NCBI RefSeq assembly: GCF_004217495.1 | Contig: NZ_SHLC01000001.1 | Span: 2,046,001-2,110,000 of the forward strand | Direction of reading: 5' to 3' | Length of the DNA stretch: 64,000 nt | From: Microterricola gilva | Lineage (GTDB): Bacteria; Actinomycetota; Actinomycetes; Actinomycetales; Microbacteriaceae | In this document: piece after piece, positions 29,504 to 51,228 of the stretch | Layout: the number at the start of each line of letters is the position of its first letter | How positions within the stretch are numbered: the stretch's first letter is position 1 | Made by a program: the position numbers and the translations under genes | The notes under the pieces: model-generated | What the model was told of the DNA's origin: nothing | What the model saw: only the letters and a program-made list of their open reading frames with translations | Database searches by the model: none

Positions 29504-29533
29504 ACGCGGTGACCTTTCGGGATGGAACGGCAT

Positions 29534-29554: not shown

Positions 29555-29607
29555 GCTGGGCCTAAGCTACACCCGAGACGAATCGTGCACAATCCCGAGA
29601 GGCGAAC

Positions 29608-30291: not shown

Positions 30292-30300
30292 GGCCGACCG

Positions 30301-31923: not shown

Positions 31924-31933
31924 CGCGCCCTCC

Positions 31934-33367
31934 TCAGTGCGTGAAGGAGGCCTTGAGGCCCTCGGTGGGCATCGGAGACTCGAGGCGGTCCAGGTACTCG
32001 ACGGCCTCCTTGATGTCCTCAATCAGCGACTCCGCGAGGTTGCGGCTGAGCCCGTTGCGCACGACGACCCGCTGCACGGTGATGTTCGAGAGGTTGTCTG
32101 GCATCGGGTAGGCGGGCACGAGCCAGCCCTTGAGGCGCAGCCGCTCGGAGAGGTGGTACAGGTTCCATTTGTCGGTGTGACCCGGTTTCAGTTGCCAGGC
32201 GAACACCGGGATGTCCGTCCCGTCGTTCCACAGCTCGAATGCCGGCATCTTGGCGATCTCACTCGAGAGGAAGACCGCGACATCCTGCGAGGTCTTCTGG
32301 ACCTTGTAGTAGCCGTCCCACCCGAGGCGGAGGAAGAGGTAGTACTGCAGGAGCACCTGCGCGCCCGGGCGGGAGAAGTTGAGGGCGAACGTCGGCATGT
32401 GGCCGCCGAGGTAGGTGACGTCGAAGACGAGGTCACTCGGCAGGTCGCCGACCGTGCGCCAGACAACCCAGCCGAGACCCGGGTAGACGAGACCGTACTT
32501 GTGGGCCGAGGTGCTGATCGAGACGACGCGTTCGACACGGAAGTCCCAGTCCAGATCGGGCTGCAGGAACGGGGCGATCATGCCGCCGGAGGCGCCGTCG
32601 ACGTGGATCTTGACGTCGAGGCCGGTGTCGGCCTCGATCTTGTCGAGCGCGGCGGCGATCTGCGCGACCGGCTCATACATGCCCGTGTAGGTCACACCCA
32701 TGATCGCGACGACACCGATCGTGTTCTCGTCGACGTACTTCTCCAGCTCGAAGCCGTCGAGCACCTTGTGGTCGTCGCTGATCGGAACGTAGCGCGCCTC
32801 GACATCCCAGTAGTTGCAGAACTTCTCCCAGCACACCTGCACTGCACTGGAGAGCACGAGGTTCGGTTTGTCCGTCGACTTGCCCGCGGCCTTGCGTGCG
32901 AGCTGCCAGCGCCGCTTCAGCGCGAGACCGCCGAGCATGCAGGCCTCGGAGGAACCGATCGTCGATGTGCCGATGGCCTTCTTTGCGTCCGGGGCGTTCC
33001 AGAGGCTGGCCAGCATGACCCAGCACCGCGTCTCGATCGCCGCGGTCTGCGGGTACTCGTCCTTGTCGATCATGTTCTTGTCGGCGGTCTCGGAGTAGAG
33101 CTTCGCGGCGTGCGGGTCCATCCACGTGCTCACGAATGTCGCCAGGTTCAGCCGGGCGTTGCCGTCGAGCATCGCCTCGTCGTGCACGATCTGATACGCG
33201 GTCTCGGCGAGGGACTCTTGGTCCGGCATCCGGTCCATCGGGAAGTCCGTTGCCTCCCCTGCTCTGGCGAAGATCGGATTGAGTTGATTCCGGTCACTTG
33301 TCCCTGTGAATGCATTCGGCGATTCGCCGGGCTTGATCTTCTTCATCTTCGGCTGCGAAACGGTCAT
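31934..33367 (-). CDS. gad: Glutamate decarboxylase
   Basis: The 477-residue protein is a PLP-dependent glutamate decarboxylase, converting glutamate to GABA with consumption of a proton. Typical blocks are TFVSTWMDPHA, DEYPQTAAIETRCW, GTSTIGSSEACMLGGLALKR, HVDGASGGMIAPF and the cofactor-binding Lys290 in STSAHKYGLVYPG. Length equals bacterial GadA/GadB. The start has GGAG about nine bases upstream. Together with the antiporter gene 10 bp downstream it forms a standard acid-resistance pair, and the ClC gene lies just upstream on the same strand. The enzyme is cytoplasmic and probably active at low pH. Confidence 0.95.
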   Translation of the reverse strand: MTVSQPKMKKIKPGESPNAFTGTSDRNQLNPIFARAGEATDFPMDRMPDQESLAETAYQIVHDEAMLDGNARLNLATFVSTWMDPHAAKLYSETADKNMIDKDEYPQTAAIETRCWVMLASLWNAPDAKKAIGTSTIGSSEACMLGGLALKRRWQLARKAAGKSTDKPNLVLSSAVQVCWEKFCNYWDVEARYVPISDDHKVLDGFELEKYVDENTIGVVAIMGVTYTGMYEPVAQIAAALDKIEADTGLDVKIHVDGASGGMIAPFLQPDLDWDFRVERVVSISTSAHKYGLVYPGLGWVVWRTVGDLPSDLVFDVTYLGGHMPTFALNFSRPGAQVLLQYYLFLRLGWDGYYKVQKTSQDVAVFLSSEIAKMPAFELWNDGTDIPVFAWQLKPGHTDKWNLYHLSERLRLKGWLVPAYPMPDNLSNITVQRVVVRNGLSRNLAESLIEDIKEAVEYLDRLESPMPTEGLKASFTH

Positions 33368-36719: not shown

Positions 36720-38096
36720 ATGTCCAAGTACCGGGTGCAGAATCCTGCCACGGGCGAAGTTCTCGAAACGTTCGAGAACGCGACCGATGCGCAGATCGAA
36801 GAGGCGCTCTCCAGCGCCAACGCCGTGTACCTAGAGTGGCGCGAGCGCAGCGTGCAGGAGCGCGCCGCCGTCGTCAAACGAGTTGCCGAGCTCTTCGAGG
36901 AACGCAAGGAAGAACTTGCGCGTCTCATCGCGCTCGAGATGGGCAAGTCCATCACCGAGTCGATCGACGAGGTCGAGTTCGCGACATCCATCATCGACTA
37001 CTACGCAGTGCACGGCCCGAGCCTGATCACCGACTACGAAATCCCGAGCACCATCCCGGGCAAGGCCTACATCGAACACCGCCCGGTCGGCGCGCTGCTC
37101 GGCGTCATGCCATGGAACTTCCCGTACTACCAGGTCGCCCGCTTCGCGGCGCCGAACCTCGTGCTCGGCAACACGATCCTGCTCAAGCACGCAGACATCT
37201 GCGCAGGCTCCGCCCTCGCCATCCAGGCGATCATGGAGGAGGCAGGAGTACCCGTCGGTGGGTACCAGAACGTCTTCGCGTCGCACGATCAGATCGCCAC
37301 GATCATCGCGGACCCGCGCGTGCAGGGCGTCTCGCTCACCGGCTCCGAGCGTGCCGGTGCGATCATCGGCGCGCAGGCCGGCCGCAACCTCAAGAAGTGC
37401 GTACTCGAACTCGGCGGTATCGACCCGATGGTGGTACTCGACTCCGACGACATCGCTGCGGTGGCCAAGCAGGCATGGGACTTCCGCGTCTACAACGTCG
37501 GCCAGGTGTGCAACTCGAACAAGCGCCTGATCGTGATGGACGACATCTACGACGAGTTCGTCGCTGAGCTGAAGAAGCTCGCGACCGGCCTGGTGCCTGG
37601 CGACCAGTTCAACCTCGCAGAGGGCGAGTTCGTGGCCCTGTCGTCGCGTGCCGCGGCAGAGACCGTTCACGCTCAGGTGCAGAAGGCTGTGTCGGAGGGA
37701 GCGACGCTCGTGGCCGGCGGTGTTCTGTCCGACGGACCGAGCGCGTACTACTCGCCTGCCGTGCTGACCGACGTGCCCCGCGACTCTGAGTCGTACGGCG
37801 TGGAGATCTTCGGGCCGGTTGCGACCGTCTACAAGGTGTCGAGTGACGAGGAGGCCCTGGAGCTCGCGAACGACTGTGCGCTGGGCCTTGGCGGTTCCGT
37901 CTTCTCGACCGATGAGGCGCGCGCGGCGCGCGTTGCGTCGCAGCTGGAGGTCGGCATGTCGCACGTGAACACCATCGCAGCGGAGTCGGCCGAGCTGCCG
38001 TTCGGCGGCGTGAAGCAGTCCGGCTTCGGTCGTGAGATGGGGCCGATCGGCATCGGCGAGTTCGCTAACAAGCGACTGTTCTTCGTCTCCGCGTAA
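36720..38096 (+). CDS. NAD(P)-dependent succinate-semialdehyde dehydrogenase-like enzyme
   Basis: The 458-residue protein is an aldehyde dehydrogenase: PWNFPYYQVARFAAPNL (cofactor entry), SLTGSERAGAIIG, catalytic Glu230 in VLELGGIDP, Cys264 in GQVCNSNKR, and EIFGPVATVYK. The short N-terminus (YRVQNPATGEVLETF) and Asn/Ser after the Cys match the succinate-semialdehyde group (GabD/Sad type). It would oxidise the semialdehyde derived from GABA, completing a GABA shunt with the decarboxylase at 31.9-33.4 kb. No GABA transaminase gene is in the window, so this link is inferred. GGAGGAAAG precedes ATG 36720; a strong terminator follows. Confidence 0.88.
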   Translation: MSKYRVQNPATGEVLETFENATDAQIEEALSSANAVYLEWRERSVQERAAVVKRVAELFEERKEELARLIALEMGKSITESIDEVEFATSIIDYYAVHGPSLITDYEIPSTIPGKAYIEHRPVGALLGVMPWNFPYYQVARFAAPNLVLGNTILLKHADICAGSALAIQAIMEEAGVPVGGYQNVFASHDQIATIIADPRVQGVSLTGSERAGAIIGAQAGRNLKKCVLELGGIDPMVVLDSDDIAAVAKQAWDFRVYNVGQVCNSNKRLIVMDDIYDEFVAELKKLATGLVPGDQFNLAEGEFVALSSRAAAETVHAQVQKAVSEGATLVAGGVLSDGPSAYYSPAVLTDVPRDSESYGVEIFGPVATVYKVSSDEEALELANDCALGLGGSVFSTDEARAARVASQLEVGMSHVNTIAAESAELPFGGVKQSGFGREMGPIGIGEFANKRLFFVSA

Positions 38097-38208: not shown

Positions 38209-39021
38209 TCACGCCTCGAGGGCGGGCACCAGACGGTCGAGGGCGTGAGCGACGCCCTCCTCGGCACACGAGAGCACAACGTCGTGGGCGATCGCACGAA
38301 CGCTCTCGTGCGCGTTCGCCACCGCGTACGCCGTGCCCGCCCAGCCGAGCATCGCAATATCGTTCGGCATGTCGCCGAAAGCGATGACGTCGCGTGCAGG
38401 GATGCCGAGACGCTCGCAGAGCCGAGCCAGCGCCGAGGCCTTGGTGACTCCCGCCGCGCTGATCTCGGCGAGCCCTGGAACCGACCACGTCACCGTCGCC
38501 CTATCGCCGACAACGGCCGCTACCTGCGCCTGAAAGTCGTCGGAGTCCAACGCGGAGTGGCGAACGAGCAGCTTCGCCGCCGGCTGATCCCAGATCTCGG
38601 CCAGCGCCCCGCGCCGCACACTCGCACGTGCTGCGCCGAGCTCCGGATAGTCCGGGTCGAAGCGGATGCCGTCGGCGCACTCGATCGCGAAGGTCGCACC
38701 GGGGATCGCCGCCGCGATGGAGCGGCTGAGCTCCAGCCCGGGCTCCGCGTCGATCCCCGCGATCGAGATCACCCGTTGGGCGTGCGCGTCGAAGGTGATG
38801 GCGCCGTTCGAGACGATGGCGAGGCCGTGCTTGCCGATGTGCGGCCAGAACGGGCTCATCCAGCGCAGCGGCCGGCCGGTGACGAAGACCACCGGAACTC
38901 CGGCGTCATCCAACCGCCTCAACACCCGCGCGGTGAACTCCGGCACACTCATGCTCGCGTTGGGCACCAGCGTGCCGTCCAGGTCGGTCGCGACCAACAC
39001 GGGCGCCACGAGCTTCGTCAC
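38209..39021 (-). CDS. HAD-superfamily IIB (Cof-type) phosphatase
   Basis: The 270-residue protein shows the HAD motifs: DLDGTLVPN (residues about 13-21, nucleophile Asp), FVTGRP (Thr), a Lys near AAKLLVRH and FGDMPNDIAML (motif IV acidic pair). The cap is type IIB, as in Cof/YidA phosphatases acting on sugar phosphates or flavin-related phosphates. Start GTG 39021 follows AGGAG by about 10 bases. It ends the minus-strand run that begins with the flavin reductase and riboflavin kinase genes, only 14 bp after the latter. A role as FMN or riboflavin-intermediate phosphatase in that pathway is possible but unproven. Confidence 0.83.
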   Translation of the reverse strand: MTKLVAPVLVATDLDGTLVPNASMSVPEFTARVLRRLDDAGVPVVFVTGRPLRWMSPFWPHIGKHGLAIVSNGAITFDAHAQRVISIAGIDAEPGLELSRSIAAAIPGATFAIECADGIRFDPDYPELGAARASVRRGALAEIWDQPAAKLLVRHSALDSDDFQAQVAAVVGDRATVTWSVPGLAEISAAGVTKASALARLCERLGIPARDVIAFGDMPNDIAMLGWAGTAYAVANAHESVRAIAHDVVLSCAEEGVAHALDRLVPALEA

Positions 39022-39035: not shown

Positions 39036-39485
39036 TCAGTTCACAGAGTCGCTGACTGTTGTGGCACGGTGTGCGCGCGATCCGCGGTGGTCAGGGGGTG
39101 CGACCGTTGCGAGCAGGCGCTCGGCGACGATCAGATCGTCCGCCGTCCGCGAGATCAGCGTATCGACATCGTCGAAGGCGGTCATCCCGCGAATCAAAGC
39201 CACGAGCTGCAGCTCCACTCGCATCCCGTACAGGTCGCCGGAGAAGTCGTGGATGTGGGCCTCGACCCTGGTCTCCGTGACATCACCGAAGGTCGGGTTG
39301 TCACCGATGCTGGTGGTCGCCTGCCGCCACCGCGGCTCATCTCCGATGCGGGCCCACGCCGCGTACACGCCGTCTGCGCAGCCACTCGCGGGCACGTCGA
39401 GGTTCGCCGTCGGAAACCCGAGCGCGTTGCCGCGCCCGTCTCCGTGAATGACGATCCCGGACAGCCACGCGATGTGCGTTGTCAT
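39036..39485 (-). CDS. rcaA: Stand-alone riboflavin kinase (RcaA-like)
   Basis: The 149-residue protein is a riboflavin-kinase domain only: GRGNALGFPTANL (ATP/Mg-binding motif), SIGDNPTFGD, VEAHIHDFSGDLYG and a C-terminal helix ending ISRTADDLIVAE. Housekeeping RibF proteins are bifunctional and about 310 residues; here the FAD-synthetase half is absent. It should phosphorylate riboflavin to FMN. The start overlaps the stop of the flavin reductase gene (ATGA, 39482-39485). With flavin reductase, ribokinase and the RcaE-like monooxygenase it matches the rca riboflavin-catabolism enzyme set described in Microbacterium maritypicum; assignment is by enzyme set and context. Confidence 0.82.
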   Translation of the reverse strand: MTTHIAWLSGIVIHGDGRGNALGFPTANLDVPASGCADGVYAAWARIGDEPRWRQATTSIGDNPTFGDVTETRVEAHIHDFSGDLYGMRVELQLVALIRGMTAFDDVDTLISRTADDLIVAERLLATVAPPDHRGSRAHRATTVSDSVN

Positions 39486-39985
39486 GCGCTGATTGAGCGG
39501 TAGCGGCTCTGGTGGAAGACGAGCGGCTCGACGTCGTCGAAGTGCGTCAGATCATCGATCGCCAGAATCACGATCGTGTGGTCGCCGGCCTCGATGGTCT
39601 GCTCGAGGTGGCAGCTGAGCCAGAGCGCCGCGCCGTCGAGGTGGATCGCACCGCCCTCCTCCGCTGCCCAGGACAGTGCACCGAAGCGGTCGCCGTCCCG
39701 CGCGGACAGCGAGCGGCTCACCTGTTCGTGGCCACTTCCGAGAACGCTCAGCCCCAGCGATGCCGACCGAGAGAGACCCGGCCAGGTGCGCGAGGTGTTC
39801 GCGACACTGATTGCCACGAGTGCGGGCTCCAGCGAGATCGAGGTGAAGGAGTTCACCGCCATTCCAATGGGTGTGACGCCATCGGAATCCAGTGCGCACA
39901 CGGCCACCACGCCGGTTGGGAAGGTAGAGAACGCGCGCCGCAGGCGCACGTCCATTGCGATTTCAATCGAGTCGTTCCGGATCAT
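39482..39985 (-). CDS. rcaB: Flavin reductase (RcaB-like)
   Basis: From ATG 39985 the product is 167 residues of the flavin_reduct/HpaC family. FSTFPTGVVAVCALDSDGVT, GMAVNSFTSISLEPALVAIS and ALWLSCHLEQTIEAGDHTIV are its conserved blocks, and FHQSRYRSI closes the domain. It would reduce riboflavin or FMN with NAD(P)H and hand the reduced flavin to the RcaE-like monooxygenase. AAGGGGG lies about six bases before 39985; an ATG 27 bp upstream is possible but falls next to the -10 box. An operator-like motif shared with the importer promoter lies just upstream. It is coupled to the riboflavin kinase gene. Confidence 0.82.
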   Translation of the reverse strand: MIRNDSIEIAMDVRLRRAFSTFPTGVVAVCALDSDGVTPIGMAVNSFTSISLEPALVAISVANTSRTWPGLSRSASLGLSVLGSGHEQVSRSLSARDGDRFGALSWAAEEGGAIHLDGAALWLSCHLEQTIEAGDHTIVILAIDDLTHFDDVEPLVFHQSRYRSISA

Positions 39986-40005
39986 CGTCGATCCCCCTTC
40001 GAGAT

Positions 40006-40023
40006 TAGTCAAATTTGTCTAGA
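40006..40023 (-). promoter_or_regulatory. Operator-like motif at the rcaBA promoter
   Basis: On the minus strand CAAATTTGACTA runs directly into TAATCT, the likely -10 box (TAATCT ends near 40003). AGACAAATTTGACT is an imperfect dyad centred on AATT. Nearly the same sequence occurs at the importer promoter (45804-45820), pointing to one shared regulator, probably the PadR protein. Confidence 0.6.
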
Positions 40024-40089
40024 TGAAAACTAACACGCCGCGAACTGGTTCATCAACAGATAGTGCCGCGAATTCCATAGCATGGAGCC

Positions 40090-40710
40090 ATGCGCACATA
40101 TACGACGTTGATGGTCCTCGGCGCGGTCAAGCAGTTCGAGCCCGTTCACGGCTACTTCCTGCGCCGCGAGCTTGCGACCTGGCATGCGGACGAGTGGGCC
40201 AACACGCGCCCCGGTTCGATCTACAACGCCCTGAAGTCGCTCGTCCGCGATGGCTACATCACCGAGGTCGACACCGAATCCGACGGCAGCTATCCGGCGC
40301 GCACCCGGTACAGCATCTCGGCAACGGGCGAGGTGGAGTTGCTCAGGATGCTGCGTGACACGCTCTGGGAGGTCGAGACCTTCGACACCAGGGCCGCCCT
40401 CGCCCTCACCTCGTTCATGTTCTTCCTCAGCAGGGAAGAGGTGGTTGCCGGCCTGGCGCATCGAATCAGCAAGATCGATGCGCTCGTCACTAGCAACAGC
40501 TTCCACATTGAGGACACGATGCGCTCGGAGACGACCCCGAAGTACGTGCGCGAGGTCTTCGAGCTGGCCTCGGCGAGGCTCCGCGCTGAGCAGCTCTGGG
40601 CCCAGCAGCTGGTCTCGCGGGTCAAGGCCGGCGAGTACGCGTTCGCCGGCGAGGCTGGCGCCGGCGGGAATGCCGGCGCCAGAGACGCGGAGACCCCGGC
40701 TACGCGCTGA
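40090..40710 (+). CDS. PadR-family regulator of the riboflavin-catabolism locus
   Basis: The 206-residue protein has the PadR winged helix (LMVLGAVKQFEPVHGYFLRR, GSIYNALKSLVRDGYITEVD, RTRYSISATGEVELLRML) and a long helical C-terminal domain of the Vir_act_alpha_C type. Start ATG 40090 is exactly six bases after TAGCAT (40078-40083), so the mRNA is probably leaderless. It lies between the two arms of the rca cluster: divergent from rcaBA and convergent with, and overlapping by 11 bp, the ribokinase gene. A riboflavin-responsive repressor is the natural inference; ligand binding is not evident from sequence. Confidence 0.85.
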   Translation: MRTYTTLMVLGAVKQFEPVHGYFLRRELATWHADEWANTRPGSIYNALKSLVRDGYITEVDTESDGSYPARTRYSISATGEVELLRMLRDTLWEVETFDTRAALALTSFMFFLSREEVVAGLAHRISKIDALVTSNSFHIEDTMRSETTPKYVREVFELASARLRAEQLWAQQLVSRVKAGEYAFAGEAGAGGNAGARDAETPATR

Positions 40711-41581
40711 CCGGCTGGTCCACCAGCCGACGCACGGCCTCGTGGCTGAGCGCGGATGTCTGCGCGCCGCGGTGCTCGGCAACAACCGCCCCGGCGGCCG
40801 CCCCCTCGCGTGCGGCGGCCTCGAGGCTCGCGCCACGGGCCACCGCCGCCACGAAGCCACCGCAGAAGGCATCGCCCGCCCCCGTCGTATCGACCGGATC
40901 GATCGCGAATGCTGGCACCTCGATCACTCCCCCGCCACGCTCATAGACGGTCACGCCATCAGCACCGCGCGTGTACACGACCGTCACATGTGGCCGGAGT
41001 GCGTCCAGCCCTCCCAACGACGCCGCCTCGGTCTCGTTGACGATCAGGATGTCAACGTCTGGAAGCATCTCCCACGTGGCCGGGTGGGCGGGTGCCGCGT
41101 TCAGCACCGTGATGGCGCTGTACTGTCTCGCCTCACGGAGCGCGGTCGCCGCGATGTCCAGATTGATCTCGAGCTGGGTCAACACGACGCTCGCCCCGCG
41201 CACCGCCGAGGCGACATCCGAGGCGGCCAGCTGTGCGTTCGCTCCCTGAGCCACCACGATGCTGTTCTCGCCGCCCGGCAGTGAGAACACATAGGCGGCG
41301 CCGCTCGGACCTTCGGCGGTCGCGACATACTCGCCACTGATCTCGACGCTGGCAAGGGCGTCGCGCAAGAACTCCGCCTCAATGTCGGAGCCAACGGCTC
41401 CGCAGAAGCGCACGCTGGCACCGCATCGCGCCGCAGCAACCGCCTGGTTGAGCCCCTTGCCGCCCGGGTACAGGCCCAGGTTCGAGCCGAGCATGGTCTC
41501 GCCCGGTTGAGGTACGCGGGCGAGACCGAGGTAGCGGTCCGCGTTCAGGCTGCCGACGACGCAGACGGTTGCCGTAGTCAT
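40700..41581 (-). CDS. rcaD: Ribokinase (RcaD-like)
   Basis: The 293-residue protein is a PfkB-family ribokinase: VVGSLNADRYLGLARVPQPG, the sugar-binding GLYPGGKGLNQAVAAARCGA, LNAAPAHP, LIVNETEAA and the catalytic DTTGAGDAFCGGF with its Asp base. It would phosphorylate ribose released from riboflavin to ribose 5-phosphate for central metabolism. Its ATG overlaps the RcaE-like gene's TAA by one base (TAATG), so translation is coupled. It is the last gene of the importer-monooxygenase operon; its end overlaps the convergent padR-type gene by 11 bp. No other ribose-utilisation genes are nearby. Confidence 0.87.
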   Translation of the reverse strand: MTTATVCVVGSLNADRYLGLARVPQPGETMLGSNLGLYPGGKGLNQAVAAARCGASVRFCGAVGSDIEAEFLRDALASVEISGEYVATAEGPSGAAYVFSLPGGENSIVVAQGANAQLAASDVASAVRGASVVLTQLEINLDIAATALREARQYSAITVLNAAPAHPATWEMLPDVDILIVNETEAASLGGLDALRPHVTVVYTRGADGVTVYERGGGVIEVPAFAIDPVDTTGAGDAFCGGFVAAVARGASLEAAAREGAAAGAVVAEHRGAQTSALSHEAVRRLVDQPVSA

Positions 41582-42936
41582 TACGCGACGGCCACCGTTG
41601 CCCGGTAGCGTGCAGCCGGGTGGTTGTCTGGCAGCGTTGGACGATCAGAGCCGACGAGCCGCTCCCGCAACGAGGCGCCGTTGCTCTCACCGACAACCCC
41701 GCGTTCGCGCAGAATGGGCAGGACCCGCTCGACGAAGTCGATCGTCGACCCCGGCTGGATCACCGGTGCGAGCAGGAAGCCGTCGAGGTCGGCGCCCTCG
41801 GCAAGCTCGATGATCCGGTCGGCGATCTCCTCCGGGCTGCCGACGAAGGCCTTCGATCCGGCGCCGTGCTCGTGCCAGTCCTTCAGCACATCGCCGACGG
41901 TCTTGCCGGCAAAGCGCGACACCTGCGACTGCGAGAGCTCGGTGTGCAGATCCGTCATCGGGGTCTGCGGGTCGTAGGACGAGAGGTCTAGACCGGTGAA
42001 CCAGGCGTAGGACGCGACCGTCACGTCGGGAGTCTGCGAGTCGAGCACCCGCTGATAGAGGCGCTGAGCGTCCTCCTTCGTCTCGCCGACAACGCAACGG
42101 AACTCGGCCATCACCTTCACGGAGTCCGCGGTTCGACCGGCGTCGACGGCGGCGGCACGGATGGCGCGGCTGTGCTCGGCGAGCTGTTCGACCGAGCCAC
42201 CACCGACGAACATGCACTCGCCGTGACGACCACCGAAGGTTCGCCCGGCGGGAGATGCCCCGGCCTGGAACAGCACGGGTGTGCCCTGGGGCGAGTACGC
42301 GGAGTTTCCGTAGCCCTCGCTCCTGAAGTAGGGGCCGTCATGCGAGATGGCGTGCACCTTTGCCGGGTCGGCGAAGTTGCCGTTCTTGTCCTTCGTCAGG
42401 GCGTCCGGTTCCCAGGCGCCCTCCCACAGCTTGTACACGAGCTCGACGAAGTCGTCGGCCATCGCATAGCGCTCGTCGTGCGCGACCATGGGGACTCCGA
42501 AGGCCTTGACGGCGGTGTCCGCCGTGCCCGTCGTCACGATGTTCCAACCGATTCGGCCGCCCGAGAGCTGGTCGAGGGTTGCCATGCGCCGTGCGAACGC
42601 GTACGGCTGCTCGAGGAGGGTCGAGCCGGTCATGACCACGCCGAGCGAGCTCGTGCGCGCCAGGATCGCGGAGGCGACGATGAACGGATCGAGGCGCGGC
42701 AGATCGAGTCCCTCGATCGAGGCCACGTCCGGCCGGACGCCGTCAACTTCGGCCCATCCCCAAGCGTCCGCGAGGAACAGAAAGTCCAGCCCGCCGTTCT
42801 CGCAGACCTCGGCGATCTTGGTCCAGTACTCGAGCGTGTCGTAGTTGACGCGTTCGTTGTCGGGGTGGCGCCAGGTTGCCCTGCCGGTGTCGTTGGCCTG
42901 TGCGTTCTCGAACAGTCCGAAGTGAAGCTGCTTCAC
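41581..42936 (-). CDS. rcaE: FMN-dependent luciferase-like monooxygenase (RcaE-like riboflavin lyase)
   Basis: The 451-residue protein belongs to the NtaA/SnaA/DszA branch of bacterial-luciferase-like two-component monooxygenases. FLADAWGW, RTSSLGVVMTGSTLLEQPYA, SGGRIGWNIVTT, GTPVLFQAGASPAGRTFGG and AFVGSPEEIADRI are branch signatures. Such enzymes need reduced FMN from a separate reductase, which the locus supplies. The published RcaE of Microbacterium splits riboflavin into lumichrome and ribose. Identity here is inferred from family, size and the presence of kinase, reductase and ribokinase partners. AAAGGA lies 8-9 bp before the start; the gene is between the permease and ribokinase genes. 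Confidence 0.8.
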   Translation of the reverse strand: MKQLHFGLFENAQANDTGRATWRHPDNERVNYDTLEYWTKIAEVCENGGLDFLFLADAWGWAEVDGVRPDVASIEGLDLPRLDPFIVASAILARTSSLGVVMTGSTLLEQPYAFARRMATLDQLSGGRIGWNIVTTGTADTAVKAFGVPMVAHDERYAMADDFVELVYKLWEGAWEPDALTKDKNGNFADPAKVHAISHDGPYFRSEGYGNSAYSPQGTPVLFQAGASPAGRTFGGRHGECMFVGGGSVEQLAEHSRAIRAAAVDAGRTADSVKVMAEFRCVVGETKEDAQRLYQRVLDSQTPDVTVASYAWFTGLDLSSYDPQTPMTDLHTELSQSQVSRFAGKTVGDVLKDWHEHGAGSKAFVGSPEEIADRIIELAEGADLDGFLLAPVIQPGSTIDFVERVLPILRERGVVGESNGASLRERLVGSDRPTLPDNHPAARYRATVAVA

Positions 42937-42994
42937 GGTGTTTTCCTTTCTCTGGCCCCCTTCCCGAGGGCCGCACTACTTTGTTGGCCGCGCG

Positions 42995-43840
42995 CTATCG
43001 CGCGGTGACTTCTCCGTCGCTCCACCACAGGACGCGCTTGCGCACGATCGCGAGGACGACGATCAGCAGGATTCCCATCAGGCAGAGCATGAAGATGGCT
43101 GCCCAGGTGACCGGCAGGTTGGCTTGCGCCGCGGAGGTGGTCACGAGCGATCCGAGACCGGCCGCCGTGCCCGCGGCAACGAACTCGGCGACGGCCGCGC
43201 CGACGACGGCGAGCGGCAGGCTGATGCGCAATCCGGCGAAGAAGTACGGCATCGAGCTGGAGAATCGCAGATTGCGGAAGATCTCCCACCGGGTGGCGTG
43301 CAGCGTGCGGAACACGTCCATCGCCCGCGGGTCGACGCTGCGGAGCCCGGCGAGCGAGTTCACCAGCACCGGGAAGAACACCACGATTCCGGTCACGATG
43401 TACTTCGGCATCATGCCGAAGCCGAAGGCGACGACAAGCGCGGGGGCGATGGCGATGACCGGCGTGACCATGATGAGAATGATCAACGGCATGATTGCCC
43501 GCTCAACGATCTCGAACTCACTCATGATCACCGCGAGCAGGTAGCCGAGCAGAATCGCTGCTCCAGCTCCGACCACAACCTCCTGCAAGGTAATCAGGAA
43601 GTTCTGCCAGTACATGTCCGGATCCTCGAGCAGGCTTCCAGCCACCTCCCCGAGGGACGGCAGGATGTACGGGTTGGTGAAGGCGATGATCTGCCAGAGC
43701 ACCGCCACGATCACGAACACGACCGCGGTCGGCCCCCACACGCGCGGGTTCAGCCAACGGGCGACGTTTCGCTGCGGCGCGCTCGCCCGAGCCTGCTGGG
43801 TGGCGATCGCCCGCGTTGCTGATACTTCGGTGCTAGACAT
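42995..43840 (-). CDS. ABC transporter permease (SsuC/ThiX/RibX-like)
   Basis: From ATG 43840 the product is 281 residues with six membrane spans and the BPD_transp_1 coupling loop (GLRSVDPRAMDVFRTLHATRWEIFRN). The type is that of nitrate/sulfonate/taurine and NMT1-dependent vitamin importers. Its start overlaps the end of the ATPase gene by eight bases. The same operon encodes ATPase, lipoprotein, RcaE-like enzyme and ribokinase, so the importer most likely takes up riboflavin or a related flavin, similar in architecture to the proposed RibXY system. Substrate assignment is contextual. Confidence 0.85.
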   Translation of the reverse strand: MSSTEVSATRAIATQQARASAPQRNVARWLNPRVWGPTAVVFVIVAVLWQIIAFTNPYILPSLGEVAGSLLEDPDMYWQNFLITLQEVVVGAGAAILLGYLLAVIMSEFEIVERAIMPLIILIMVTPVIAIAPALVVAFGFGMMPKYIVTGIVVFFPVLVNSLAGLRSVDPRAMDVFRTLHATRWEIFRNLRFSSSMPYFFAGLRISLPLAVVGAAVAEFVAAGTAAGLGSLVTTSAAQANLPVTWAAIFMLCLMGILLIVVLAIVRKRVLWWSDGEVTAR

Positions 43841-44654
43841 GTGCTGCCTCCTGCATGACATCGGCGAGCCGGCTTCGCACATAGCCCTCGAGCTCGCGGA
43901 AGGCGTCACTCGCGTAGGCGTCTTCCGTGCGGGGACGGGGAAGGTTGACGTCGATGATCTCGGCGATCCGCCCTGGGCGCGCCGCCATCAGCACGATGCG
44001 GTCAGAGAGCACGATCGCTTCGGGCACCGAGTGCGTGACGAACATGACCGATTTGCGGTGGGTCTGCCAGAAGTCGAGCAGCCCGAGGCGCTGCTGGTCG
44101 CGGTTGATCTCGTCGAGCGCGGAGAACGGTTCGTCCATCAACAGCAGTGCCGGATCGAACGCGAACGCACGCGCGATCGCGACCCGCTGCTGCATGCCTC
44201 CTGAGAGCTGCTTGGGGAATTTCTCCAGAGCGTGACCGAGGCCGAACGAGGTCAAGAGCTCATCCGGGTCGCGCAGTGTTCGCCCGGCATTTGCGGCCGG
44301 GTTGATCTGCAGGGGCAGCTTGACGTTGTCGCGAACCGAACGCCACGGCAGGAGCGCGGGTGCCTGCGGCACCAGCCCGATGAGCTTGCGCTTCGTCGCC
44401 TCCAGGACGGAGTCCGTCCCGATCGTGACGGAGCCACCGTCTGCCTCCAGGAGGCCGGCGACCACCTTCAGCAGAGTCGATTTCCCGCACCCACTTGGGC
44501 CGATGACCGAGACGAACTCTCCAGGTGCAACGGTCAGGTTGACGTCATCCAGGGCGAGCATCTCCTGCCCGGGCCGGCCGAACTTCTTCACGAGATGGGA
44601 GATCTCGACGCCGTGCCCGTTCGCGGTCACGTTCTCGGCGACGATCGCGGTCAC
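43833..44654 (-). CDS. ABC transporter ATP-binding protein (SsuB/TauB-like)
   Basis: The 273-residue ATPase is complete: Walker A GPSGCGKST (residues 52-60), Q-loop in GLVPQAPALLPW, signature LSGGMQQRVAIARA, Walker B LLLMDEP and the switch His in FVTHSVPEAI. A closing VNLPRPRTED segment is usual for the nitrate/sulfonate/NMT1 importer class. Its start overlaps the stop of the substrate-binding protein gene (ATGA, 44651-44654) and its end overlaps the permease gene. It powers the presumed flavin importer. Confidence 0.92.
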   Translation of the reverse strand: MTAIVAENVTANGHGVEISHLVKKFGRPGQEMLALDDVNLTVAPGEFVSVIGPSGCGKSTLLKVVAGLLEADGGSVTIGTDSVLEATKRKLIGLVPQAPALLPWRSVRDNVKLPLQINPAANAGRTLRDPDELLTSFGLGHALEKFPKQLSGGMQQRVAIARAFAFDPALLLMDEPFSALDEINRDQQRLGLLDFWQTHRKSVMFVTHSVPEAIVLSDRIVLMAARPGRIAEIIDVNLPRPRTEDAYASDAFRELEGYVRSRLADVMQEAAHV

Positions 44655-45766
44655 TTGGCGTCTCCGGGCCAGATCAGCTCACCGTCCGTGCCGTAGAGGT
44701 CCGCGACGATGTCGATGTCGATGATGTCCTCGACCGGAGGAATCTCCGTGACGGTTCCGAACTGCTTCACGATGTCGGAAGCGCCCTGCCACTGCGCAAC
44801 TGTCTGCACGCCTGGAGCACCCGCCTGGCTGTCGCGCACCCACTGCGATTCGATCGCCCAGGTGCGTGCCTGCTGCTCACGCGGGAATGCCTTGCCCTGG
44901 CCACCCTCCTCGGCGAGCCTGGTGATGATGTCCACGCAGTCGTCCTCGTCGGCGAGGCAGTGCTCGAGCGCCTTGAGACTTGCACGCATGAAGCTGGATG
45001 CCGCTTCCGGGTGGTCCTTCAAAAACTGAGTGTTGGTCTCCATGACGTTGTAGGTGCCCGTCACGCCCAGGTCAGCCGGCAGGAACTGGGAGAACTCCTC
45101 CCCCATCGCCTCGAGGGTCGCGCACTGGTTGGATGCGTAGCCGACGACGGCGTCGACCTGGCCACGGAGCACGACGGTCGGGTCGTAGTTGGTCATCTTG
45201 ATCAACTCGATCTGGTCGACGTCTGCGCCGGCGGCATCGAGCATCGCACCCGCGGTCGGCGTCAGGTTGATGAAGTAGCCGAGGGTCCCGCCTTCGAGGT
45301 CCTTCAGGCTCTTGATGTCCTTATTCGCGAAGATGCAGAACGGCGATGTGGTTCCGTACGTGGCGACGGCCGTCAGGTTCTTGCTGTTTGCTGCCGCCAT
45401 GAGCACGTCCTCAGCGGAGCCGAGTTCCGTGAACTGCCCCTTGCCGGACGACACGAGCTGCTGGCCGTTGCCGCCTGCTGCGTTGATCTCCACGTCGAGG
45501 CAGAGGTCATCGAAGTAGCCGAGCTCGTCCGCGATGAACACGTCGAGCTGGCCGGCACTGGCCGAGTAGCCGTACCCGGAAATGTAGGTGATGGGACCGG
45601 CCTCAGCGTTGCGGTCACAGGCCGCCTTGCTGATCGCTGCCTCGTCATAGTCGGGTGTCGATCCTACGGTTGCACCACTGCAGCCGGCCAGTACGGTCAC
45701 TCCAACGAGAACACTGACGAGGGCCGCAGCGCGACGCCCTCCCGATTTCGGATTGATCAAAATCAT
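44651..45766 (-). CDS. ABC transporter substrate-binding lipoprotein (NMT1/THI5-like), presumed flavin importer
   Basis: From ATG 45766 the product is 371 residues. A lipoprotein signal peptide ends at Cys29 in VTVLAGCSG. The rest is an NMT1/THI5-like periplasmic-binding fold: GYSASAGQLDVFIADELGYF, the GGNGQQLVSSGKGQF helix start, LKDLEGGTLGYFI and GQVDAVVGYASNQC. Six or more cysteines in the mature part may form disulfides. Family members bind pyrimidine-like and vitamin ligands, consistent with an isoalloxazine substrate. GAAAGG is about seven bases before the start. A promoter with the operator-like motif shared with rcaBA lies upstream. First gene of the five-gene operon. Confidence 0.83.
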   Translation of the reverse strand: MILINPKSGGRRAAALVSVLVGVTVLAGCSGATVGSTPDYDEAAISKAACDRNAEAGPITYISGYGYSASAGQLDVFIADELGYFDDLCLDVEINAAGGNGQQLVSSGKGQFTELGSAEDVLMAAANSKNLTAVATYGTTSPFCIFANKDIKSLKDLEGGTLGYFINLTPTAGAMLDAAGADVDQIELIKMTNYDPTVVLRGQVDAVVGYASNQCATLEAMGEEFSQFLPADLGVTGTYNVMETNTQFLKDHPEAASSFMRASLKALEHCLADEDDCVDIITRLAEEGGQGKAFPREQQARTWAIESQWVRDSQAGAPGVQTVAQWQGASDIVKQFGTVTEIPPVEDIIDIDIVADLYGTDGELIWPGDAK

Positions 45767-45798: not shown

Positions 45799-45827
45799 GA
45801 TAGTAGTCAAGTTTGATTGATTGCACA
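45799..45827 (-). promoter_or_regulatory. Promoter and operator-like motif of the importer-rcaED operon
   Basis: On the minus strand TTGTGC (-35) and TACTAT (-10) are 17 bp apart. Between them and overlapping the -10 box lies CAAACTTGACTA, which differs by one base from CAAATTTGACTA at the rcaBA promoter. In both cases the motif abuts the -10 hexamer, as expected for a repressor. Confidence 0.65.
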
Positions 45828-45970: not shown

Positions 45971-48900
45971 CTACTGCACCGTCACCACCACGCGCGCGTT
46001 GACATCCGTGCCGGCGATGGAACCGGTGAAGGTGAACCATCCGGGCTTCGCGAGCTTGTCGGCCGGAACACTCTCCCAGTCGACGCCCACCGAGCCGGTC
46101 GAGCCGTCGCTGTACACCGCGTCAAGCTCGGCTGGCAGCTCAGGCTGCTGCCCGACGGCGGTGGTCACCGGCGGGGCGGAGGCCTCGACGATGCTCTTCA
46201 CGCCCGCCGGTCCGAATGCGCTGAACTCCGCAAGCCCGACCTCCCCCTTCAGCGCCTGGTTATCGAAGGTGTTGTTCGGGTCGAGGGTGAACTTCAGCCA
46301 CGATGTGGTCACGGGAGCATCCAGCTTGATGATGTTGTCAGGCTGGCCGTTCCACGCGATACCCGTGACGAGCTTGCTGCCGCCCTCCCACTCCAACAGT
46401 CCTTCCGCAATCTGATTGACCTCATGCCCACGATCGACCAGGTTGACCCGATCGATCTGCACCGGGCCGGAGAATTCCAGCTTGATCCACGGCGCGACAT
46501 CCGTCTGCTTCGACGCCCAGGAGCTCGCCTTGTCGCTGTCGACGGCCTTGGATCCGACGTAGCGCGCGTCCTGATTGTCGCCGTTGGGGACACCGTTCGC
46601 GTCGCGCACCGACGAGACGGTCACGGTCGCCGAGCTCGCGATGTTCTCCCCGGTCGCGGTGAGCTGAACCGGATCCGAGGTGATCGTCTGGCCGCCGTAG
46701 GTGACGGAGACCCGCACGGTCGACTGGACGGCGCCTGTCACCGGTTCGGTCAACACGATGGTGTTGCTGCTTCCCACCTGCGCCAGCCTCGGGTCGCTGA
46801 ACTCGAACGTCGTGGTCGTCTCTGCGGGATTCGCCGCGGCTCCTGTGTTGAGAGTCGTCTCCACCGTTGCCACGACTGGTTCACCCACTCGGATGACGCC
46901 GCCACTCAGCGAGAGCTGCACGCTCTGTGCGTAGCCAGGCAACGACAGGCGCCCGTCCGCATCCACTTCCACGTAGAAGAAGTCCATCGCACGGTAACCA
47001 TCGAGGTTCGCGTTGACCGTGATCTTCGCCTGCCCCTTCGCGGCGCCGGTGATCAGCCCGTCGGCCGAGACCGACGCGACATCCACATTGTCGCTGAGGA
47101 TGGAGACCGCGCTTTGCGGCACCGAGACCGCATCGCCCTGGAAGGACCGTCCGGCGATGTCCACCGTGGCGGTGCGCGCGTCGTCGCCGAGTTGCGGAGC
47201 CGCCTCGATGCCGGCCAGCCCGGTCATCTCGTGCGCGGCCTGGATTCGCACCTCGAGCAGGTCCACGGCCGCACCGGCCGAGCCGTCGGGGAACGCGACC
47301 CGCACGTGCTGGGCGACCCCGGTCAGCGGGTAGGAATTGAACGCGCCCCAGAACACGGAGCCGCTGGGTCCCGACGCGGAGTGCGCGTCGGTCCAGGTCT
47401 CGCCGTCGACGCTCGTCTGGATGACGATCGTCCTGGGCGTGTTCACATACTGCTGGCCGCCCTCGTTGAAAGCCAGATCGACGCTGGAGAGCTCGGTCGG
47501 GGCGGCGAGGTCGAACTGCGCCCAGGACGCACCATCGGCCGCCGCACTCCATCCGGAGCCCCGCGGGTGCCCGGCGTCGATGATGATGCCGTCGCTCAAC
47601 GTCGTAGCAGCATCGGATGCGTCGCTGGTCGTGATCGTCGCGGAGGGTGCGACGTCACGGGTCGGCAGGAGATCGAAGAACACACGGTTGGTGGTGACGG
47701 TCTTCCCATCGAGCGCGGCTTCACCCCAGACAACCATGCGCGTCGCTTCAGTGACCTGTGGCGTGCTGAGCTTCCCCTTGGCGAAGCCGAAGCTGTTCAC
47801 CTCGGTGATCGCGATCGGCTCGGTCTTCGTTCCACCGTCGAGGTCGACGACGCCCGCGTGCCACGTGACGTCGGCCGCATCCAGTCGGATCGACTGCCCC
47901 TTCGCCGAGCGGCCGTCGACTGTGTAGCCCAGATCGACGCCCTGCGTGAAGGTGCCGAACGTTTCCTTGCCCTCGATCCGCAGCACGGCGCTGCTCAGCT
48001 CTTCGCCGATGTAGGCGATGCCGTTGAGAACCGACACCGTGACCGTGGTGCTCTTCTTGACGCCCTCAGCCTTGACCGAGACCGTGACCTCGGCTGAGCC
48101 ATCGGCACCGGGGGCGATCAGGCCGTCCTTGCCCACGGCAACGACCTTCTTGTCCGAGCTCTTGTATTTCACCTGGTCGAGCTCCGCCGGCAGCGCAGGG
48201 TAGGTCATGTAGCCACCGACCTCGAGCTGAAGCCGACCCTCGTCCAGAGCGTGCGCGTCGACGGTGACATCCGTCAGTGCGTACGTCCGCGCCTTGTTCC
48301 TGGTCTCGATCTTGATGATCGTGTCGACCGGGTCGACGCTCACATCCGAGAGGTCGAGCGCGAGTTCTTCGCCGTTCTGCGTGCTGCTGATCTTCGAGCC
48401 GTCGTTGAGCAGGGTGACGGAGGTCACCTTGTCGGTGATCCCGCCGACCGTCAGCTGCCCGTCCTGGATGGCGTCAAAGCCCTTCTTGCCGTCGGGACCC
48501 GCGATGATGTGCAGGTAGATGTTGTTGTCACGGTGCGTGGCGTAGCCCCACTGCGGGCCGGTGCTCGCGGTAGGGAATGCGAACTTCTCGGCGTTACCTA
48601 GACCGTCATCCTCATATCCATAGCCGGGGAGGAAGAACGGCGTCGTTCCTGAGACCGATTCGAGCAGGTTGATTCCCGGAGCCGGCGCGTACCAGTCTGC
48701 CAACTCGTCACGGATCTCGATGAACTCCTGGGCGCCCTTCGGATAGCGTGTCGCCATCTCCGTCGGTGAGTGCCAGTTCGGTCCGCGGCCGTCGTTCACG
48801 GTCTGGTCGTTGTTGTCGACGTATCCGCGACCCGCGTTCATGATCGTCTCTTGCGCCACGAGTCGGAAGTCGTCACGCTGCGGATAGTACGGCGAATCCT

Positions 48901-51073
48901 GGTTCCGGGTGCCGAGGATCTTCCATGGCTCCATCGGAGTCCGCTTCACAAGGTGGTTGGTCGCCGTGTTGGCGTAGATGTGGGATGCCTCGTCGGTGCG
49001 GATGTCGGGATCCCCGTATTCCTCGCCCCAGGCGTTGGAGTCGATCACCACGTCGGCGCTACGGTTGCGCACCGCGCTGTACATCACGTCGTAGTTCCCG
49101 CCCGGCATCGTCTGCGGGCCGTCGAAGTAGAGGTAACTGGGGTCGTATCGGTCAAGCAGGTCCTCGACGTTCTGCACGAACACGTCCGTGGAGAAGTGCT
49201 GAAGGCCGCCGCCCTCGGTGGCGTAGTACATGCCGACGTCCATACCGTAGCGGCGAATGGCGTCGACCATCGGCTTCAGGCCGTCGACAACGTTGCCGTC
49301 CTCTGCCTTGGGCAGGTACTTCTGGCGCTCGCCGGCTGGATCCGAGAACTTCGATGGCCAGTGGTAATTCTGTTGCAGTGCCTCGAGCGACACCATTGCA
49401 AGCCCTTGGGCCTTGGCACGCGCCGCCCACTGGTCGACGGAGTAGTTGGGGTCGACGAAGTAGTTGTAGATCGGCGCAGAGTGCGTGAGCGCGCTGACCC
49501 GCCCTTCCTCGAACTTTCGGTTCGGGCGATCCTGCACCGTGAGCGTGAACTGCTTCTTCGCCGTCGCGCCGGCACCGTCGGTCACCCGGAGGGTGAAGGT
49601 GTAGTCGCCGATGCGGGCGTCGGGGCTGATGATCCCCTTCGTGCTGGACAGGTCGACTGCGCCATCGACGAGCCCGTCTGCGATGGTGCCGTCCGGGTTC
49701 AGCTCGAGGCCCTTCGGGAGTTCTCCGTCGATCAGCTCCCAGGTGTAGCCGGGCTTTCCACCGCTCGCGAGGAACTGGAACGGCGATGCGGAGACGCCAT
49801 AGCTATTGCCTGTGGTCGACTTGTTCCAGACATATGGCCACTCGAGGTAGCCGGTAGGCAGCGCGCCCTTCGGCAACGCACCCTTGTCGGCACCCTTGCT
49901 ACTCAGGGGCTGAGTGTCGATGCGCAGTTTCTTGGATGGTCCGGCCACCGAGGTGAGGATGCCATCGACCCGGTTGCCGCTCGCGTCGCTGATGCGGCCG
50001 TAGAAGCCGAGATAGGCGACGTTCTGGTCCTTCGCGACCGGTACGCCGTTCGCGTTGAGGTCCTCGGTGTAGGTGTGCTCGATCTGCAGGAGAACCTTGT
50101 TCCATCCCGCCTTCAGCTGCACCTCTTGCCGGGTCAGGTCCTTCTGGACCTCGACCGGAGTGCTGGGGGCGGTGACACAGTTGTCGTTCACATACAGGCG
50201 GTACGAGCCGCTGGCACCGACGTTGACGAAGGCCTTCTTGGCTTCCGGGCTGTAGACGTAGCTGTGTGCGTAGACGAACTTGTTGCGCGTGTCCTCGCCC
50301 CTCTTCACCTCGAAGTAGCCGGACAGGTCCTGGTAGTCGTCGTAGTTGCGGTTGTATACCCGGTCGTCGAAGTACTCCCACGTGCTGGACTCGGCGGCGT
50401 CGCCGAGCGCACCGCCGACGACCGGCGTGATGGCTTCGCTGCCTTCCGCCGGCTCGGCACGCTGATAGACCTCGATCTCGGACAGCCCAGTGATGGCGGG
50501 GTACGGGGAGAGACCGGGATCGATGTCGATGGACATTGCCACGACATCGCGCAGGGTGCTCTCGTGTATGTAGGTGGTGGGCGAACTCGGAGCAGCGGAG
50601 GTGCTGGTCACACGCGGGGAGGTGACGACAGAGCCGTCTGCGAGCGTGAAGGTGATCTCGTAGTACTCGTTCACGTGCCGCGAATCGCCCCACTGCGCCA
50701 GCCGGACCTCGTTGAGCGCGATCGGCGACGCCCAGGTGAGCGTGACCCGCGGTGCCGAATCGTTCTCGGTGACCCACTGCTTGCGGAGGTTGCCATCGAC
50801 GAGCTGTGCAGGTGGGTTCACGGTCATGGACGACGAAGCCGTCACCGTCGAGGTCGGCGCGAGGTTCTTGACCTCAGCAACCTCGCAGCCATAGATTCCA
50901 TCGGCGACTGCCGAGTCGAACGGTCCGGACACCAGCCACGAGTTGATGAACGGGGCGGTGCCAGTGGCCTGCTGCGCAAGCGCAGGGCTGACGGATGCTC
51001 CGAAGACCATCGTGGTCGAGACCAGCGCGGCCGCGCCGAGGACCGCTAGTGGTTTATCGCGCAATAACTTCAT
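45971..51073 (-). CDS. Large secreted multidomain GH29-like glycoside hydrolase (alpha-L-fucosidase family)
   Basis: The 1700-residue product has a signal peptide (residues 1-33, ending PALAQ). A discoidin (F5/8C)-like domain lies about 65-215, a beta-sandwich about 255-370 and a putative-Ig (He_PIG) domain about 430-525. A TIM-barrel of GH29 type follows, about 530-850 (GMYYATEGGG, then YDPSYLYFDG with candidate nucleophile Asp651). Downstream are Big_2 repeats, two further F5/8C-like modules (SDASDAATTLSDGIIIDAGH and DNQDARYVGSKAVDSDKASS) and a C-terminal Big_4-like domain. No LPXTG or other sorting signal is seen. It should release fucose or a related sugar outside the cell. AAGGAG precedes ATG 51073; the LacI gene is upstream. 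Confidence 0.8.
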   Translation of the reverse strand: MKLLRDKPLAVLGAAALVSTTMVFGASVSPALAQQATGTAPFINSWLVSGPFDSAVADGIYGCEVAEVKNLAPTSTVTASSSMTVNPPAQLVDGNLRKQWVTENDSAPRVTLTWASPIALNEVRLAQWGDSRHVNEYYEITFTLADGSVVTSPRVTSTSAAPSSPTTYIHESTLRDVVAMSIDIDPGLSPYPAITGLSEIEVYQRAEPAEGSEAITPVVGGALGDAAESSTWEYFDDRVYNRNYDDYQDLSGYFEVKRGEDTRNKFVYAHSYVYSPEAKKAFVNVGASGSYRLYVNDNCVTAPSTPVEVQKDLTRQEVQLKAGWNKVLLQIEHTYTEDLNANGVPVAKDQNVAYLGFYGRISDASGNRVDGILTSVAGPSKKLRIDTQPLSSKGADKGALPKGALPTGYLEWPYVWNKSTTGNSYGVSASPFQFLASGGKPGYTWELIDGELPKGLELNPDGTIADGLVDGAVDLSSTKGIISPDARIGDYTFTLRVTDGAGATAKKQFTLTVQDRPNRKFEEGRVSALTHSAPIYNYFVDPNYSVDQWAARAKAQGLAMVSLEALQQNYHWPSKFSDPAGERQKYLPKAEDGNVVDGLKPMVDAIRRYGMDVGMYYATEGGGLQHFSTDVFVQNVEDLLDRYDPSYLYFDGPQTMPGGNYDVMYSAVRNRSADVVIDSNAWGEEYGDPDIRTDEASHIYANTATNHLVKRTPMEPWKILGTRNQDSPYYPQRDDFRLVAQETIMNAGRGYVDNNDQTVNDGRGPNWHSPTEMATRYPKGAQEFIEIRDELADWYAPAPGINLLESVSGTTPFFLPGYGYEDDGLGNAEKFAFPTASTGPQWGYATHRDNNIYLHIIAGPDGKKGFDAIQDGQLTVGGITDKVTSVTLLNDGSKISSTQNGEELALDLSDVSVDPVDTIIKIETRNKARTYALTDVTVDAHALDEGRLQLEVGGYMTYPALPAELDQVKYKSSDKKVVAVGKDGLIAPGADGSAEVTVSVKAEGVKKSTTVTVSVLNGIAYIGEELSSAVLRIEGKETFGTFTQGVDLGYTVDGRSAKGQSIRLDAADVTWHAGVVDLDGGTKTEPIAITEVNSFGFAKGKLSTPQVTEATRMVVWGEAALDGKTVTTNRVFFDLLPTRDVAPSATITTSDASDAATTLSDGIIIDAGHPRGSGWSAAADGASWAQFDLAAPTELSSVDLAFNEGGQQYVNTPRTIVIQTSVDGETWTDAHSASGPSGSVFWGAFNSYPLTGVAQHVRVAFPDGSAGAAVDLLEVRIQAAHEMTGLAGIEAAPQLGDDARTATVDIAGRSFQGDAVSVPQSAVSILSDNVDVASVSADGLITGAAKGQAKITVNANLDGYRAMDFFYVEVDADGRLSLPGYAQSVQLSLSGGVIRVGEPVVATVETTLNTGAAANPAETTTTFEFSDPRLAQVGSSNTIVLTEPVTGAVQSTVRVSVTYGGQTITSDPVQLTATGENIASSATVTVSSVRDANGVPNGDNQDARYVGSKAVDSDKASSWASKQTDVAPWIKLEFSGPVQIDRVNLVDRGHEVNQIAEGLLEWEGGSKLVTGIAWNGQPDNIIKLDAPVTTSWLKFTLDPNNTFDNQALKGEVGLAEFSAFGPAGVKSIVEASAPPVTTAVGQQPELPAELDAVYSDGSTGSVGVDWESVPADKLAKPGWFTFTGSIAGTDVNARVVVTVQ

Positions 51074-51228
51074 TGTTGCTCCTTTGCGGTGTCGGTTCTT
51101 CAGCGAACCAACGAGGGGGTCGGAGTGTTCTGTGGGGGAAAACTCGATCGCTGCGGTGCGCTTTCCACTCGGTTGCGTCAGCGCGACAGCGTCCGATCCC
51201 ACGATGAACACGGGACGTGCTTAAACGA

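Follow-up and report, generated by a model that had tools for sequence, protein, structure and literature searches.

The 64,000-nucleotide stretch of DNA analysed here, from the soil-type actinobacterium Microterricola gilva (contig NZ_SHLC01000001.1, positions 2,046,001 to 2,110,000; the window) contains a gene cluster which we read, with a probability of roughly 80%, as an rca riboflavin-catabolic locus provided with its own riboflavin uptake system and kept under PadR repression. The cluster comprises the four enzyme genes rcaA, rcaB, rcaD and rcaE, an ATP-binding cassette (ABC) importer with an NMT1/THI5-type lipoprotein, a padR gene and two copies of a palindrome. In the proposed scheme, whose chemistry is taken from published work on relatives, the lipoprotein would capture external riboflavin and the ABC transporter would import it. 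RcaA would convert a part of it to FMN, RcaB would reduce the FMN using NAD(P)H, and RcaE, with reduced flavin and oxygen, would split riboflavin into lumichrome and ribose, the ribose then being phosphorylated by RcaD for growth. PadR would repress both divergent units via 16-bp palindromes located before rcaB/padR and before the lipoprotein gene until riboflavin or a product releases it, and lumichrome probably remains as the end product.

The M. gilva genome has one FMN riboswitch, located before apparent ribD, ribE, ribBA and ribH (rib gene names follow our reading of this operon), and a separate bifunctional RibF (FAD_syn and Flavokinase domains) is encoded elsewhere in it. Riboflavin synthesis by the cell is thus probable, so that the rca locus would serve external riboflavin. 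The idea that the cell goes on to degrade lumichrome with a LumA-type Rieske dioxygenase was rejected, as the genome gave no Ring_hydroxyl_A match (other Lum enzymes were not searched for); with no alpha subunit of such a dioxygenase detected, lumichrome is probably released.

Riboflavin lyase and the rca gene set

The gene rcaE (41581–42936, minus strand) encodes what is, as judged from sequence comparison, an orthologue of riboflavin lyase, the FMN-dependent riboflavin monooxygenase. A phmmer search of all PDB chains gave riboflavin lyase 5w48 as the best match (764 bits), the alignment covering residues 1–447 of 451, nearly the whole length of the protein; the lyase is also represented by entries 5w4y and 5w4z. 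The runners-up were dimethyl-sulfide monooxygenase (318 bits), nitrilotriacetate monooxygenase (219 bits) and DszA (215 bits), and an NtaA-, DszA- or sulfur-type function was rejected on this score gap. Grouping with nitrilotriacetate or dibenzothiophene enzymes had been named beforehand as a finding that would speak against the riboflavin assignment; RcaE instead falls inside the riboflavin-lyase (RcaE) group of the tree, a well-separated group of 65–97% identity that includes the proteins of Microbacterium maritypicum MF109 (locus L061) and Devosia riboflavina (locus L070). A shift of the monooxygenase to another substrate (a sulfur compound, a nitrilotriacetate-like compound or another N-substituted heterocycle) would leave the riboflavin kinase merely to supply FMN, as does RibR in the B. 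subtilis ytm operon. We consider such a shift very improbable. It would agree with the match of RcaE to the broad NtaA/DmoA subfamily (TIGR03860, 411 bits) and with the riboflavin kinase domains seen in other monooxygenase loci (L148, L150), whereas the 764 versus 318 bits, the placement in the separated group and the adjoining ribokinase-like gene argue against it.

Family calls were made by Pfam and NCBIfam profile searches. All frames are open and stand in the order which the sequence-only reading had given, and both databases agree with its families for the four rca enzymes, the importer and PadR. The riboflavin kinase RcaA (39036–39485, minus strand; 149 aa) displays PF01687 alone (111 bits, residues 8–124), confirming that this stand-alone enzyme lacks the FAD-synthetase half, and RcaB (39482–39985, minus strand) is a flavin reductase (PF01613, 118 bits). 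RcaD (40700–41581, minus strand) is a ribokinase-like PfkB kinase whose best NCBIfam model is ribokinase; its 219 bits lie below the equivalog cut-off of 299.65, so that the earlier ribokinase call stands at the family level and not at that of an equivalog. A HAD-IIB (Cof-type) phosphatase gene (38209–39021, minus strand; PF08282, 159 bits) does follow rcaA, as had been noted, but it lies outside 39036–45766 and is a lineage-restricted accessory, found in 3 of the 59 importer-type relatives described below.

On the minus strand, the lipoprotein, ATPase, permease, rcaE and rcaD genes lie in this order as one predicted operon, and rcaB, rcaA and the HAD phosphatase gene lie beyond padR; padR, on the plus strand, diverges from rcaB and meets the end of rcaD tail-to-tail with an 11-base overlap. 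Genes overlap by 1 base (rcaD/rcaE), 4 bases (rcaA/rcaB and ATPase/lipoprotein) or 8 bases (permease/ATPase, if the permease ATG is at 43840), and 58 bases separate the permease gene from rcaE; the 1–8 base overlaps and 58-bp gap claimed previously are thus borne out by the coordinates.

According to PMC12746152, five genes including RcaE convert riboflavin to ribose and lumichrome, and the rca cluster is described in PMC12934955 as restricted to Actinomycetota and Devosia. RcaE, RcaB and RcaA of the window are orthologous to those of the M. maritypicum and D. riboflavina clusters. The M. maritypicum MF109 locus has the same gene order as the window, importer and PadR included, with padR at the place expected for "rcaC"; the two rcaE share 69% identity. 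The HAD gene 3' of rcaA distinguishes the window from both clusters, D. riboflavina having a ribokinase-like gene 3' of rcaA. By its sequence, the locus in the window is one more representative of the rca cluster already described.

A pattern-based genome scan yielded 76 rcaE-type loci, 71 of which have at least 65% identity, the next best having 42%. These 71 loci, several of which are strains of one species, belong to Microbacteriaceae, Demequina, Nocardioides, Streptomyces, Kitasatospora and Catenulispora and, among the Alphaproteobacteria, to Devosia, Maritalea and Pelagibacterium. The distribution of rcaE is patchy, as evident from its occurrence in 14 of 398 genomes of the M. gilva family (M. 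gilva included). A plasmid search gave 358 records with a match, and two of them reach 60% identity to RcaE, viz. a 175-kb plasmid of Maritalea myrionectae (NZ_CP021331.1, 66%) and a 1.5 Mb replicon of Streptomyces sp. NBC_00841 (NZ_CP108854.1, 71%); judging from these relatives, the pathway can be plasmid-borne in some hosts and may have been spread by plasmids. A phage origin of the locus was discarded, no relative being found in the viral_contigs collection (the phages collection was not searched).

The importer and its replacement in one clade

The importer operon begins with a 371-aa NMT1/THI5-type substrate-binding lipoprotein having an LAGC lipobox (44651–45766, minus strand; PF09084, 125 bits), followed on the same strand by the ATPase (43833–44654; PF00005, 113 bits) and the permease (42995–43840; PF00528, 92 bits). 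The comparison set consisted of 75 rcaE loci of at least 65% identity (the 71 from the scan together with L020, L026, L028 and L029), nine duplicates having been dropped. Genes for lipoprotein, ATPase and permease immediately precede rcaE in 59 of these 75 loci; the 16 without an importer, all from Streptomyces, Kitasatospora or Catenulispora, group together as a single clade in the RcaE tree (100/100). Within the 59 importer-type loci, matches above the cut-off were obtained for PadR (57 loci), RcaB (57), RcaA (50), RcaD (40) and the HAD phosphatase (3), and the two loci without PadR and RcaB (L097 and L105) are contig ends. The importer therefore accompanies rcaE more regularly than the riboflavin kinase or the ribokinase does. 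Gene order varies as well, rcaA/rcaB being placed at the far side of the importer in L032 and L094 and a kinase gene lying 3' of rcaA in L063, L070, L083, L087 and L088. As the importer recurs before rcaE in 59 other loci, drawn from two phyla, while the other genes vary, chance is excluded, and these neighbourhoods suggest that the importer is a regular part of the rca set outside the streptomycete-type clade.

Orthologues of the lipoprotein (at least 62% identity) occur in 15 of the 398 family genomes, M. gilva included, 14 of them with RcaE. The fifteenth, G345, has PadR and the importer (L141, on G345:C3) with no rcaA, rcaB, rcaD or rcaE and no palindrome in the scanned promoters; this locus is perhaps in decay, or is used for import only. 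The importer, PadR and RcaB co-diverge with RcaE (Mantel r 0.88–0.94, p 0.001, 58 loci).

Importer and PadR are absent from all 16 streptomycete-type loci. A gene of the RibM/PnuX riboflavin permease family (PnuC/RibM), unrelated to the ABC importer and not represented in the window, is a neighbour of rcaA or rcaB in 14 of the 16, not in L050 (a contig end) or L055, and a LacI-family regulator gene lies before rcaD in 15, L054 being a contig end. Both permease copies tested contain the NMN_transporter/PnuC domain, and no match to the permease was obtained at E 1e-8 in the 59 importer-type loci. Further copies of the permease were found in four of the five streptomycete-type genomes searched (of 16), the fifth being without. 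In all four genomes the nearest further copy (40–50%) stands with ribE, ribBA and ribH behind an FMN riboswitch, which is the setting of RibM; third copies (28–36%) had no rib genes or riboswitch within the stretches taken. RibM is described in PMC4418817 as an actinobacterial riboflavin transporter, RibM and PnuC being hard to separate by sequence. The exchange between importer and permease looks to have happened once, its direction hanging on an uncertain tree root. Linkage in 59 of 75 loci, with the remainder in one clade, and the clade-wide replacement both support the earlier suggestion that the importer takes up riboflavin, a transport activity which we infer. Confidence in this explanation is tempered, since the importer was found in 59 of 75 loci with one clade lacking it, and not in 59 of 59 independently chosen ones.

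A Foldseek search with the lipoprotein model (pLDDT 87) placed it nearest to ThiY (3ix1), the thiamin-bound 4nmy and Thi5, followed by sulfonate and taurine binders; the modelled fold would fit a vitamin-like heterocycle as ligand, without naming one. Several of the observations count against the preferred reading. Among proteins of solved structure, the lipoprotein comes closest to one that binds a thiamin pyrimidine and one that binds thiamin, and the non-rca lipoproteins most like it adjoin other monooxygenases, which are RutA-like in all three loci tested; the fold alone thus does not point to riboflavin. RcaA reached the cut-off in 50 and RcaD in 40 of the 59 importer-type loci (contig ends account for some of the misses), the Mantel co-divergence is equally expected from common descent of neighbours or species, and neither an FMN riboswitch nor another Rfam element was detected in the window at the gathering threshold. 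The thiamin-type structures and the RutA-like (pyrimidine-type) neighbours would suit a locus with true rca enzymes whose importer serves for a related molecule instead (FMN, FAD, roseoflavin-like analogues or a vitamin of the pyrimidine/thiamin type), riboflavin entering otherwise. This alternative appears unlikely in view of the importer at every compared rcaE locus outside one clade, the nearness of the substitute permease of that clade to the rib-operon permease, the palindrome common to the importer operon and rcaB, and the lack of any Rfam thiamin riboswitch in the window.

A riboflavin importer of this kind has a precedent, as riboflavin importers of the NMT1/THI5 protein class are already known. 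According to PMC4418817, RibXY of Chloroflexus aurantiacus has an NMT1/ThiY-class binding protein and its riboflavin transport was shown by complementation. An NMT1-class binding protein and a BPD-type permease are likewise present in the window (PF09084 and PF00528). RibXY has, as per the same text, an FMN riboswitch and is set among biosynthetic genes, whereas the window importer is without such a riboswitch and has its own ATPase gene and catabolic neighbours. Because the FMN riboswitch is absent and the likeness is one of protein class, the importer is not counted as a RibXY member. Riboswitch control of the locus was also rejected, no Rfam match having been obtained in the window or in the six streptomycete-type loci scanned. 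A phylum-wide lipoprotein search for RibY-type proteins gave matches in 10 of 396 genomes (M. gilva included) at E 1e-15.

Paralogous importers were observed in other Microbacteriaceae (L143–L154, e.g. L149:2417-9608 and L150:1-8964), their lipoproteins being 32–40% identical to the rca lipoprotein. Such lipoproteins were found in 30 of the 398 family genomes at E 1e-30, just one of which (G195) also has rca. Of the 12 loci examined, all but L146 and L153 (thus 10) encode at least two luciferase-type monooxygenases nearby. One monooxygenase in each of the three loci tested (L143, L149 and L150) is RutA-like, with 218–259 bits against a cut-off of 498, and L149 also encodes an isochorismatase-fold hydrolase and a flavin reductase; these loci may represent a pyrimidine-type ring-opening system. 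A fusion of an MFS transporter with a riboflavin kinase (PF07690 and PF01687) stands beside the paralogous importer at L150:814-2730 (638 aa) and L148:844-2601 (585 aa), which suggests either coupling of flavin transport to phosphorylation or a local FMN supply.

PadR and the shared palindrome

The padR gene (40090–40710, plus strand) encodes a regulator of 206 aa (PF03551, 40.6 bits, cut-off 27) and is, from its place in the gene order, probably the gene already named rcaC. A palindrome, TAGTCAA-N2-TTGACTA, was seen in the padR–rcaB gap of relatives. The window has a candidate operator with one mismatch to it in the rcaB–padR gap (TAGTCAAATTTGTCTA, 40006–40021) and a second with two mismatches 5' of the importer-rcaE-rcaD operon (TAGTCAAGTTTGATTG, 45804–45819), as compared to perfect palindromes ahead of both units in M. 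maritypicum. The scan covered the PadR/importer loci and not the LacI-type loci. With up to two mismatches, the palindrome was located 5' of padR in 53 loci out of 59. For the lipoprotein gene the figure is 48 out of 60. The remnant L141, with a site at neither place, is included in both totals, and these are counts of related loci rather than of independent events; the remaining 1.146 Mb of sequence gave a single match, in the remnant L141. As the consensus was derived from the padR side, the lipoprotein-side count is a partly independent test, and 300 permuted palindromes were each found in at most 1 of 59 lipoprotein promoters (mean 0.03) as compared to 48 for the real one. In the M. gilva genome the palindrome has only two matches within two mismatches, which are the two rca promoter sites. 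The conserved palindrome before both units thus supports the PadR control that had been proposed, through which PadR would repress them.

The PadR model (pLDDT 82) has B. subtilis PadR, M. tuberculosis Rv1176c and VanR as its best Foldseek matches by E-value; the PadR domain and a related fold are common to the window PadR, LmrR, B. subtilis PadR and VanR. In LmrR, a PadR protein of the short kind, riboflavin is bound between a pair of tryptophans with a Kd of 0.26 µM, upon which DNA binding weakens 2- to 4-fold (PMC4534193). The window PadR is of the long form, and all 29 rca PadRs that were aligned have Trp93. LmrR may, by analogy, serve as a precedent for flavin sensing by a PadR-type regulator.

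Other results weigh against this control. No site within two mismatches lies 5' of padR in L032, L094, L077, L091, L093 and the remnant L141. The site 5' of the lipoprotein gene has three mismatches in ten loci, and none was detected in L095 (nor in the remnant). The backwards-read pattern matches the M. gilva genome four times against two for the real one, so that the position of the sites, not their number, is telling. The TM-scores of the PadR model to B. subtilis PadR and VanR are low (about 0.3–0.4), the best among the leading matches being 0.58 to Rv1176c. PadR might then be a local autoregulator, the palindromes being promoter elements or sites of another regulator, a reading which fits G345, where padR and the importer are retained with no site in the scanned promoter regions, and L032 and L094, where rcaA/rcaB lie beyond the importer and padR is without the site. 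We regard this as improbable, as most loci, across two phyla, have the palindrome before both units and it occurs elsewhere only once, in the remnant; repression of both units by PadR, with riboflavin or a product as inducer, is preferred.

Wider implications and neighbouring genes

On a more general level, and with less confidence than for the window locus itself, it seems rather probable that riboflavin catabolism combines import, attack and a vitamin-sensing switch in two interchangeable editions: an ABC importer with its own binding-protein branch and a PadR (rcaC) sensing riboflavin or lumichrome at TAGTCAA-N2-TTGACTA, or a RibM-type permease with a LacI repressor. The importer would share ancestry with the importers found next to RutA-like monooxygenases, so that uptake of flavin by its uracil-like edge may derive from pyrimidine uptake.

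The entry of riboflavin into riboflavin-eating cells and the switching of the pathway are little treated in the literature covered. The words 'transporter' and 'PadR' have 0 occurrences in the main text of PMC12746152, as have 'transport' and 'uptake' in the available text of PMC12752717. No statement of importer and PadR as rca parts was found in a limited survey of available texts, which included PMC12746152, PMC12934955, PMC12752717, PMC4418817 and PMC5399262 and had the founding rca papers outside its range. Importer and PadR as regular parts, a candidate operator and the second, RibM/LacI edition look like what the present sequence comparison adds. It makes import and switching directly testable, on one lipoprotein, one operator and a natural swap of importer family. 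It also offers a marker set for likely riboflavin degraders and lumichrome producers, namely rcaE with an ABC importer or a RibM-type permease, together with the operator. Lumichrome acts on plants, which lends interest to the finding of its producers.

The starts adopted for rcaB, the permease and the lipoprotein are shorter than those in the list of open reading frames (ORFs) and were chosen by ribosome-binding-like sequence, overlaps and operator positions. For rcaB the longest ORF extends to a TTG at 40012, which falls within the first operator, and AAGGGGG stands just 5' of the ATG at 39985, the likely start. The permease probably starts at the ATG at 43840 (longest ORF to 43909) and the lipoprotein at the ATG at 45766, its longest ORF beginning 61 codons earlier.

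An aldehyde dehydrogenase gene (36720–38096), nearest to succinate-semialdehyde models, adjoins the locus; it is also present in the near relative L018, there about 3.4 kb from the HAD gene. Directly 5' of the importer operon and on the same strand, 45971–51211 encodes a probably secreted protein of 1746 aa with F5/8 type C, DUF7402, Big_4 and He_PIG domains and no catalytic domain by Pfam. Farther away, a FAD-binding fumarate-reductase-like protein, a Na+/H+ antiporter-family protein, an amidohydrolase and a PLP-dependent decarboxylase are encoded together at 24511–33367, possibly as another small catabolic set.

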